DNA from: Candidatus Vogelbacteria bacterium RIFOXYB1_FULL_42_16
GTDB taxonomy: Bacteria > Patescibacteriota > Minisyncoccia > Phycocordibacterales > XYD1-FULL-46-19
Direction of reading: 5' to 3'
NCBI GenBank assembly: GCA_001823055.1
Contig: MHTH01000013.1
Location: forward strand, 1 to 35,713
DNA length: 35,713 nucleotides
This document shows positions 7,756 to 9,652 of the stretch, piece by piece; the first letter of the stretch is position 1, and the number at the start of each line of letters is the position of its first letter. A program made the position numbers and the translations under genes. Under the pieces are notes generated by a model. The model ran no database searches and had not been told where the DNA came from. It saw only the letters and a program-made list of their open reading frames with translations.

Positions 7756-7801
7756 TTTTTTAGCCAGTCATTTTAAAAATAATATGGCTAGTTAAAAATA
7801 T

Positions 7802-7986
7802 GCGAGTATGGTTTAGTTTGCCCTCTCATTTTTTTTAAATTATGCGGAATTGGTTTAGTGGTAGAACATGTGCTTCCCAAGCATAGGGCACGGGTTCGAT
7901 TCCCGTATTCCGCACCAAAAACTTGTTAGGGTGAATAGAATGCGACCTTACCAAGGTTGAGACAGGTGTTCGATCCCCTTACTCGC
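7802..7986 (+). pseudogene. Split tRNA-Gly-like pseudogene enclosing the intact tRNA-Gly
   Basis: The 5' part GCGAGTATGGTTTAGT (7802-7817) and 3' part at about 7927-7986, ending in TACTCGC, have perfectly complementary acceptor strands (GCGAGTA with TACTCGC). The 3' part holds an anticodon arm CGACC-TTACCAA-GGTTG, giving anticodon ACC (Gly), and a T arm with a mismatch. The halves are separated in the D-loop region by about 110 bp carrying the complete tRNA-Gly(CCC). A34 in a bacterial tRNA-Gly is not expected, so this is almost certainly dead. Confidence 0.65.
7844..7917 (+). tRNA. tRNA-Gly (CCC)
   Basis: The acceptor GCGGAAT pairs with ATTCCGC, followed by discriminator A and an encoded CCA (7915-7917). 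Anticodon loop TTCCCAA gives CCC (7876-7878), reading GGG. The T arm CGGGTTCGATTCCCG is intact. It is the only tRNA of the window with an encoded CCA, and it sits inside the split tRNA-Gly pseudogene. Confidence 0.93.
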
Positions 7987-7987
7987 A

Positions 7988-8040
7988 CACGGGTTCGATT
8001 TTTACCTGTCCGAAGCGGAAGCAGAGGCAGGTCCGTATTT
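7988..8040 (+). pseudogene. tRNA-Gly 3' fragment interrupted by a hairpin
   Basis: CACGGGTTCGATT (7988-8000) and CCGTATT (8033-8039) copy the T arm and acceptor side of the intact tRNA-Gly(CCC). They are separated by about 30 bp made of an imperfect hairpin whose ends are ACCTG and CAGGT (8004-8032). The interruption falls in the T loop. Confidence 0.6.
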
Positions 8041-8067
8041 TGTGTAATGCAACACTTTTATTTACAG

Positions 8068-8123
8068 CTGTCAAAACTATACCAAATATACACGATCGTG
8101 TATATTTGGTATAGTTTTGACAG
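8068..8123. repeat. 56-bp perfect palindrome upstream of the RNHCP gene
   Basis: CTGTCAAAACTATACCAAAT and the rest of a 28-bp arm are followed immediately by the exact complement, centred on CGATCG, with no loop. It is AT-rich and not followed by a T-run on either strand. It lies about 45 bp before the RNHCP start, so it may be an operator, a cruciform or an element end. Confidence 0.85.
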
Positions 8124-8169
8124 AAAATTTTTATACGGTACATTTTTAAGGTTAAAATTTAAATAGAAT

Positions 8170-8466
8170 ATGTCTAAAAATTTTATTAAAAACAAAGAAG
8201 ATTTTACTTGCCTCAATTGCGGAGCCGAGGTGATTGGCAATGGTTACACTAATCATTGCCCGAAATGTTTGTGGAGTCAGCATGTCGATAATTTGCCCGG
8301 CGATCGGGCTAACAGTTGTTGTGGTCTCATGGAGCCAATCGGAATTGAAAAAGAGGGCCAAGATCACGACTTAGTTCATCGCTGTCAAAAATGTGGTCTG
8401 ATCAAGAAAAATAAGACGATCAGAGATGATGATATTGGTAGTTACTTAACGGGTATGTTAAAATGA
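8170..8466 (+). CDS. RNHCP domain protein
   Basis: A 98-aa protein with the RNHCP domain (PF12647), a small zinc-ribbon-like module of unknown function. The motif is FTCLNCGAEVIGNGYTNHCP, then KCLWSQHVDNLPGDRAN, then CCGLMEPIGI and HRCQKCGLIKKNK. Three CxxC-type cysteine pairs and the NHCP element are conserved, so metal binding is likely. The name comes from a conserved R-NHCP signature, not a known reaction. It is followed by a start-codon-associated repeat and the glutaredoxin gene on the same strand. The upstream leader contains a 56-bp palindrome. Confidence 0.85.
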   Translation: MSKNFIKNKEDFTCLNCGAEVIGNGYTNHCPKCLWSQHVDNLPGDRANSCCGLMEPIGIEKEGQDHDLVHRCQKCGLIKKNKTIRDDDIGSYLTGMLK

Positions 8467-8486
8467 AAAATATTTTGAGGATGAAT

Positions 8487-8602
8487 CCCGTTTAGAGGCC
8501 GCGATCGCTGTCTATTTATGGGTAGTGTCGTCAAAAGTTTGTTTTATCAGTTATAAATTTAAAACAGAAAACGGTCATTGATCGCGATCTGCCTCTAACG
8601 GG
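8487..8602 (+). mobile_element. Start-codon-associated inverted-repeat element, copy 2
   Basis: A 116-bp non-coding element with ends CCCGTTTAGAGGC and GCCTCTAACGGG, flanked by ATGAAT (8481-8486) and ATGAAA (8603-8608), a 5-of-6 target duplication. The right copy is the start of the glutaredoxin gene; the left copy is preceded by TTGAGG, probably that gene's original ribosome-binding site, now 120 bp away. Relative to copy 1, two stem positions changed on both arms (A:T to G:C), which keeps the pairing. Confidence 0.75.
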
Positions 8603-8839
8603 ATGAAAAAAGTTACTATTTATACCGCCTCAACTTGTCATTTTTGTCACATGGCCAAGGATTTTTTTAGAGAAAAAGGGGTGGCATTTGAGGAATTTGA
8701 TGTTGGTGTTGATGTCGCCAAGCGTCAGGAGATGATGCAAAAAAGTGGTCAAATGGGCGTGCCAGTCATTGTGATTGACAATAAAGAAGTGATTATCGGT
8801 TTCAACCAACCTTTGATTTCTCAATTGTTGGGGATTTAG
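8603..8839 (+). CDS. Glutaredoxin-like thiol-disulfide oxidoreductase
   Basis: A 78-aa thioredoxin-fold protein. The redox centre is CHFC (residues 12-15, in TASTCHFCHMAKDFF), the cis-proline loop is GVPVIVID, and the C-terminal helix follows IGFNQ. The length and sequence fit the glutaredoxin/NrdH group that reduces protein or ribonucleotide-reductase disulfides. NrdH-type proteins take electrons from thioredoxin reductase, and a TrxB-like gene is present at 22327-23253. The ATG is the right target duplication of the upstream repeat element, so the gene's leader is now the element itself. Confidence 0.9.
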   Translation: MKKVTIYTASTCHFCHMAKDFFREKGVAFEEFDVGVDVAKRQEMMQKSGQMGVPVIVIDNKEVIIGFNQPLISQLLGI

Positions 8840-9029: not shown

Positions 9030-9281
9030 ATGGACAATCAAAATCTTGACCAAAAAGTCGAAGCGATAAAAAGTTTAGCTGAGGAGAATAATAAAATCTT
9101 GCGGAGAATGAAGCGGTCAATGCAATTGGCCAGATTTTTTAGTGTTTTGAAATGGGTGGTGGTTATTGGCGGGACAGTGGGAATTTACTATTACTTTCAA
9201 CCAATAGTCAACCAGTTACTCGATACTTACAGTCAACTATTGGGTGGTCTAGGCGGAGTGCCAAAATTGCCAAATATTTAG
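9030..9281 (+). CDS. Small coiled-coil membrane protein
   Basis: An 83-aa protein. Residues 5-30 form an amphipathic, coiled-coil-prone helix (QKVEAIKSLAEENNKILRRM), followed by basic residues and one membrane helix at about 38-57 (FSVLKWVVVIGGTVGIYYYF), then a glycine-rich tail. No enzyme motif is present and I do not recognise a named family. The -10 box is 8 bp from the ATG, suggesting a leaderless message. Its stop overlaps the stop of the convergent HNH gene by 4 bp. Confidence 0.75.
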   Translation: MDNQNLDQKVEAIKSLAEENNKILRRMKRSMQLARFFSVLKWVVVIGGTVGIYYYFQPIVNQLLDTYSQLLGGLGGVPKLPNI

Positions 9282-9652
9282 AATTCTAAATTTTTTCCTT
9301 TATAGGCGTCTGCTTCATCGATGAATTTTTTGCTAACTTTTGTGCTATGAACCGTTGCATGGCAGTTGGAACACAAAAGAATGCATTTTTGTAGTTCTTT
9401 TTTTATAAATTCCCATTTTTTGTTAGCCACATTGCCAATAATAAAATCTTTTTCTTGTGGTTTTAGATGGTGAAATTCAAAGGCTGCTTGATCACCTTTC
9501 CAGCCACAATATTGGCATTTTCCTCCTAAAAATTTAACGGCCGCAGCTTTGGCACGGTATCTTCTGATTTTGGTATTACACACGCCACAACGAGCACGAC
9601 CTTTTTTATGATAATACTTAAATTCTTTATTGCATAATCTACACAGGATCAT
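9278..9652 (-). CDS. HNH endonuclease
   Basis: A 124-aa nuclease of the HNH superfamily with two zinc-binding modules. N-terminal CRLCNKEF...CGVCN is a zinc ribbon; the catalytic core is CQYCGWKG...FEFHHLKP...CILLCSNCHATVH, giving the His-His, Asn-Cys-His layout of HNH. Such stand-alone genes cut DNA and are often mobile or phage-derived. There is no methylase or intron next to it, so its role is unknown. It sits between a small membrane protein and tRNA-Phe and converges on the former with overlapping stop codons. Confidence 0.88.
   Translation of the reverse strand: MILCRLCNKEFKYYHKKGRARCGVCNTKIRRYRAKAAAVKFLGGKCQYCGWKGDQAAFEFHHLKPQEKDFIIGNVANKKWEFIKKELQKCILLCSNCHATVHSTKVSKKFIDEADAYKGKNLEF

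Follow-up and report, generated by a model that had tools for sequence, protein, structure and literature searches.

A hairpin cassette with a tRNA-Gly gene in the D-loop of another tRNA-Gly gene: a putative MITE-like element that recurs in Patescibacteria

How does an intact tRNA gene come to lie in the D-loop of a second tRNA gene, and what becomes of the gene that it interrupts? This question is raised by the tRNA-Gly locus of Candidatus Vogelbacteria bacterium RIFOXYB1_FULL_42_16, located in the 35,713-nucleotide stretch of DNA analysed here (the window). At positions 7802–7987 on the forward strand, a tRNA-Gly gene is interrupted in its D-loop by a 118-bp hairpin cassette (7818–7935), which was recognised by an exact match to the pattern TTGCCC...GGGTGAA and by folding. 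The 5′ part of the outer gene (7802–7817) consists of the acceptor strand GCGAGTA, TG and the D-arm GGTTTAGT; it was assigned by running ARAGORN on the joined flanks and is like the plain syntenic tRNA-Gly(CCC) of related genera. The cassette is ordered TTGCCC, 5′ arm, intact tRNA-Gly(CCC), 3′ arm, GGGTGAA, with 105 nt between the end motifs. The left motif, the 5′ arm and an AT-rich spacer occupy 7818–7843, followed by the inner tRNA-Gly(CCC) with an encoded CCA at 7844–7917 (Rfam tRNA, 70.9 bits) and by the 3′ arm and right motif at 7918–7935 (motif at 7929–7935). The 3′ part of the outer gene (7936–7987) then continues with TAGAAT, the anticodon loop TTACCAA (anticodon ACC), the T-arm, the acceptor strand TACTCGC and an A; the Rfam tRNA model scored it below threshold, at 16.8 bits (7931–7987). 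The inner gene was the only tRNA-Gly(CCC) detected in the genome.

A sequence-only reading of this locus had proposed a Gly(ACC) gene split in the D-loop around Gly(CCC), and when the flanks were joined without 7818–7935, ARAGORN did call a Gly(ACC). The two acceptor halves that it named are both present, at 7802–7808 and 7980–7986, but position 7986, given as the start of TACTCGC, is its end. It had also singled out Gly(CCC) as the only gene with an encoded CCA; this holds for the window, where CCA was found on no other tRNA, but not for the genome, where about 14 of 41 tRNAs encode it. As a control, we applied this deletion and joining to each of the 41 tRNAs that ARAGORN detected in the genome, using 26 x 20 trim lengths. 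Three nested genes, Gly(CCC), Arg(CCG) and Pro(GGG), were alone in giving a tRNA of the same isotype across the junction. At other trims, Pro(GGG) also produced numerous spurious calls, because the outer 5′ half already holds a whole D-arm and anticodon stem. At a fourth nested gene, Pro(CGG), the joins yielded only a spurious Ser, and one more match elsewhere was a neighbouring tRNA.

Directly downstream lies a further fragment (7988–8039), a remnant T-arm CACGGGTTCGATT...CCGTATT interrupted by a hairpin at about 8001–8032 (ACCTG...CAGGT), just as the T-arm copy split by a hairpin had been described before. It parallels the outermost 3′ half in another Vogelbacteria record (L037/L090), a Gly double nest in which two tRNA-Gly types are nested in the opposite order compared to the window. 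As the T-arm of an outermost shell, the fragment would match the second of these two types, and the doubly nested Vogelbacteria locus suggests that it is probably what is left of such a further tRNA-Gly shell. In the same Vogelbacteria record, the neighbouring tRNA-Arg(CCT) also lies within the halves of an Arg-like tRNA, with different hairpins (CCCGCCATAATCC...; L037:440-720, minus strand). Two other features of the window were recorded in this region: a perfect 28-bp inverted repeat with no loop (CTGTCAAAACTATACCAAATATACACGA and its complement) at 8068–8123, just 3′ of the nested tRNA, and an HNH endonuclease gene (PF01844) at 9278–9652 on the minus strand, with tRNA-Arg and tRNA-Phe genes on either side.

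The genome carries three nested tRNAs besides Gly(CCC), namely Pro(GGG), Pro(CGG) and Arg(CCG). A genome-wide search with TTGCCC N(90–120) GGGTGAA gave five matches, while the reversed pattern, used as a control, gave none. The matches were the Gly locus of the window, Pro(GGG) and Arg(CCG), which are neighbours on C7, and a paralogous pair of ncRNA-like hairpins, one on C11 and the other on C12. Pro(CGG), also on C7, has the variant left end TTCGCCC, and the outer Pro gene around it contains extra hairpins, one of which is a cargo-free copy of the end motifs in reverse orientation (TTCACCCTATG...CATAGGGTAAA). Each of the four inner tRNAs is the sole detected gene for its anticodon. Reading of the genome covered the stretches around tRNAs and search matches. 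Intergenic DNA also contains three cargo-free hairpins of 144–151 bp with the family ends (C5, ~107.45k; C11, ~1.96k; C15, ~0.5k), two of which have 28 nt of their 5′ end in common. Copies of the family ends are thus dispersed over contigs C5, C7, C11, C12, C13 and C15; most tRNAs of the genome are without such arms. The earlier description of a tRNA within a tRNA with debris around it stands, but the locus is not a one-off mosaic: it is a hairpin cassette whose ends are conserved, present at four places in this genome and found elsewhere in the phylum.

Two kinds of structure in this genome deserve mention in their own right. The paralogous ncRNA-like hairpins (L020:1480-1660 and L021:1050-1225 on the minus strand; GGGTACGGATTTTC-CTTGCCCC...GGGGTGAACTTGAAAATCC...) carry the family end motif and a conserved TTGTCACGGTCGTAAA core, and no Rfam family matched them. 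A second family of palindromes, about 120 bp long and with about 15 copies, has the form ATGAA-TCCCGTTAGA...TCTAACGGG-ATGAA and was found at 8481–8607 of the window and on C1, C2, C5, C12, C14, C19 and C21 (L129-L147). Nearly all of its copies end exactly at an ATGAA start codon, for example in front of genes that read like dnaJ, murG, gltX, topA and those for ribosomal proteins L2, L3, L22 and L29, and several contain a short upstream ORF that ends at the right arm.

The syntenic place of the Gly locus in relatives was located through the downstream RNHCP gene. In seven genera of the family (G002, G005-G009, G011), a plain, cassette-free tRNA-Gly(CCC) lies beside the RNHCP gene, which represents the empty site. 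The outer gene of the window was 82–87% identical to the plain Gly genes of four of these genomes (G005, G006, G007 and G009), and the inner gene was closest to the plain gene of another, G008, at 90% identity. Judged by these identities, the outer gene is most likely of the ancestral type, its anticodon having changed from CCC to ACC, and the inner gene is most likely the replacement. At the Pro/Arg locus on C7, the counterpart of the neighbouring gene in relatives has no tRNA beside it.

About 20 tRNA-bearing cassettes with TTRCCC...GGGTGAA ends were found in total, all of them in Patescibacteria and including double and triple nests (the latter an Arg(TCT) in G235). An exact-pattern scan of 84,980 GTDB species genomes, whose counts keep the end motifs by construction, returned 47 matches, nine of them with an outer tRNA around an inner one. 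By label, these nine belong to Uhrbacteria (four), Yonathbacteria, Vogelbacteria, the Parcubacteria group, the Patescibacteria group and an unclassified MAG (one each), and the cassette arms of the unclassified MAG match those of the Patescibacteria group record. The 38 matches with no outer tRNA were used to judge the chance level of the scan; the tRNA-holding matches outside Patescibacteria had no outer tRNA around them and were taken as chance. In a sample of 380 genomes of the phylum, the strict pattern identified four carrier genomes and one chance match, which puts prevalence by strict ends at about 1% of species; the true value is certainly higher. With a flank pattern, G326, G338, G455 and a tRNA-free case in G510 were also recovered, and the cases beyond the nine GTDB nests are G235, G320, G326, G345, G455, G510 and partly G338. 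In the tRNA-free case (L154, ~1390-1515, minus strand), the D-loop of a Val gene holds a long, near-perfect hairpin with the family ends and an AT-rich, non-tRNA filling. With a covariance model (R1) that combines cassette and tRNA, the nested cases scored 93–126 bits and ordinary tRNAs mostly less than ~85 bits, but its searches were swamped by the latter. An assembly artefact was rejected, as independent MAGs show the same arrangement, some of them rated 100% complete (G320, G326). A viral origin was also rejected: no nested tRNA was detected in a scan of viral contigs, and matches to the cargo-free end were without a matching second arm. No description of such cassettes was found in the literature searched (nested tRNAs, CPR tRNA introns, Patescibacteria palindromic elements), and they form a recurrent, apparently undescribed class in this phylum.

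The consensus of the elements is C-TTRCCC, a 5′ arm of ~10–14 nt, a spacer of 0–12 nt, a complete tRNA, the 3′ arm and GGGTGAA-G. The arm sequences vary between elements yet are complementary within each: the mean helix score was 8.36 for an element's own arms, compared to 2.98 (sd 0.38) when arms were swapped between elements, with a maximum of 4.73 in 5000 derangements. The arms also differ between cassettes of one genome, which are therefore not recent copies of one element. Some arms are common to cassettes with different cargo in different organisms, as for E14 Arg and KR11 Val (CCCCCACACCAAAT) and for G235 Arg and Uhr83 Pro (CCCCGTTAGA). The fixed ends could themselves pair, as C-G, U-A, U-A, a bulged G and R-U with R being G or A. 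The target was nearly always the D-loop at T-G-G, and otherwise the anticodon loop, in Pro (own genome, Uhr83) and Val (G345). The isotype of the cargo equalled that of the target wherever both were readable, with the sole exception of G455 (a Val in an Arg-like gene). In most D-loop cases the TGG of the canonical loop appears as C-TTRCCC...GGGTGAA-G, and nucleotides were therefore lost or gained.

The family ends recur around ~20 other nested tRNA genes across the phylum, which gives the cassette the look of a mobile hairpin. We favour, at a probability of about 0.6, a putative MITE-like element that enters the loops of tRNA genes and brings with it a substitute tRNA for the gene that it breaks. 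In the window, a short hairpin-ended cassette, in which fixed ends (TTRCCC...GGGTGAA) and two complementary arms enclose a complete tRNA gene, would have entered the D-loop of the ancestral tRNA-Gly(CCC). The cargo tRNA would then have become the functional gene, leaving the outer one to decay, here from CCC to ACC. Because the cargo tRNA offers a fresh D-loop, a next cassette could insert into it and build up matryoshka-like nests. The cassette may have moved as DNA, or via an RNA or single-stranded intermediate, with the help of a presumed enzyme. As for a MITE, conserved hairpin ends occur on both nested and cargo-free copies, the arms pair within elements, copies are dispersed at unrelated sites and the Gly site is empty in seven other genera. 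A clean target-site duplication was not seen; TG...TG can be read beside the ends, but with an extra CT and AA. In the stretches read, no transposase or recombinase could be tied to the ends, which counts against this reading. So does the near-constant match of isotypes, as it is not explained by random insertion, and the nucleotides missing or added at the junctions do not follow from the model either. The match may mean that the cargo rescues the gene that was broken, or that it arose locally.

That match is also what would be expected if the nests arose by local duplication or rearrangement without any mobile element, with tRNA genes of the same isotype copied into each other by hairpin template switching and the arms left as by-products. 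The long, nearly identical parts of the inner and outer genes in G326, G320 and G338 count against the mobile cassette and fit such a local event too, as does the mixed order of A-type and B-type genes at the Gly locus of two genera. However, a local event does not readily account for TTRCCC and GGGTGAA being constant across families and isotypes, for their presence on cargo-free hairpins away from tRNAs, or for arms held in common by cassettes with different tRNAs, and we consider this origin unlikely. The hairpin with its conserved ends could instead be an RNA structure with a function of its own, either in processing of the inner tRNA or as a protein-binding site, with the outer tRNA being only the historical site. 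The arms covary also in elements whose outer gene has decayed, which is consistent with such a role, as are the potential pairing of the ends, in which an R opposite U fits either G or A, and the family ends inside the ncRNA-like pair on C11 and C12. Yet most tRNAs of the genome and the plain Gly genes of relatives do without such arms, which makes this explanation improbable.

A true intron or split tRNA would place the conserved ends in a different light: RNase P and RNase Z would free the inner tRNA, the helix would hold the halves together, and a putative endonuclease and ligase would join them into a second working tRNA. The D-loop and the anticodon loop are classical intron sites, the ends adjoining the exons are conserved, the arms covary, and some joined outer genes have the full tRNA structure (own Arg(CCG), Parcubacteria Ala(GGC) and own Gly(ACC)). 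However, the tRNA-splicing endonuclease PF01974 was detected in none of seven carrier genomes, while the archaeal controls were detected, and RtcB was present in one of the seven (G326). At least about half of the outer genes are broken (about nine, often by further hairpins). Excision would also be imprecise in most D-loop cases, since a cut at TTRCCC...GGGTGAA leaves the loop one nucleotide short with G18 missing, and a cut at CCC...GGGTGAA usually leaves it two nucleotides too long. An exception was the anticodon loop of the own Pro(CGG), where the cut CCC...GGGTGAA yields the expected GATTCGGGTT. Splicing as a general account thus appears quite unlikely, and the functional split gene that the sequence-only reading had named as its alternative is disfavoured. 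A narrower version, in which the nearly well-formed outer genes of Arg(CCG) and Ala(GGC) are made functional by a novel bacterial RNA splicing that recognises the TTRCCC/GGGTGAA helix once the inner tRNA is excised, giving two tRNAs per nested gene, is very improbable.

MITEs, REP/BIME and the Rickettsia palindromic elements are short, hairpin-forming, presumably non-autonomous, and dispersed in or near RNA genes. The cassette is likewise short, hairpin-forming and dispersed, but its hairpin encloses a complete tRNA gene, targets tRNA loops and ends in TTRCCC/GGGTGAA. ICEs, prophages and genomic islands also insert into tRNA genes and compensate with a carried sequence; they use an integrase, mostly target the 3′ half and rebuild the end of the gene they have entered. 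The cassette, in contrast, is ~115 bp long, lies in the D-loop or the anticodon loop, codes for no protein and brings along a complete second tRNA. The nests resemble archaeal tRNA introns and split tRNAs (bulge-helix-bulge, EndA) in that a helix joins the halves of an interrupted tRNA; they differ in that EndA is missing, many outer genes are broken, the helix has no bulge-helix-bulge and the two halves are separated by an entire tRNA. Group I introns interrupt bacterial tRNA genes as the cassette does, but the latter has only ~45 nt apart from the inner tRNA, and a group I intron was rejected, as no Rfam group I family matched at 7760–8180 with E up to 10. Elsewhere in the genome, the anticodon loop of a tRNA-Asn(GTT) missed by ARAGORN is interrupted by ~300 bp that resemble a group I intron (L002:2502-2850). 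Tagged REPs have been described (PMC3733652), as has a tRNA-Sec gene nested in selB (PMC8124441); the latter is likewise a tRNA gene within another gene, but its host is a protein gene and there is no hairpin cassette.

If the mobile, replacement-carrying hairpin is the correct reading, an element that breaks and at once replaces a tRNA gene could use essential, conserved genes as landing sites in bacteria whose genomes are among the smallest. This would also account for unusual tRNA sets, degenerate tRNA halves and overlooked tRNAs in the annotation of Patescibacteria, and the ~20 loci provide a concrete set for asking whether bacteria ever splice a nested tRNA.
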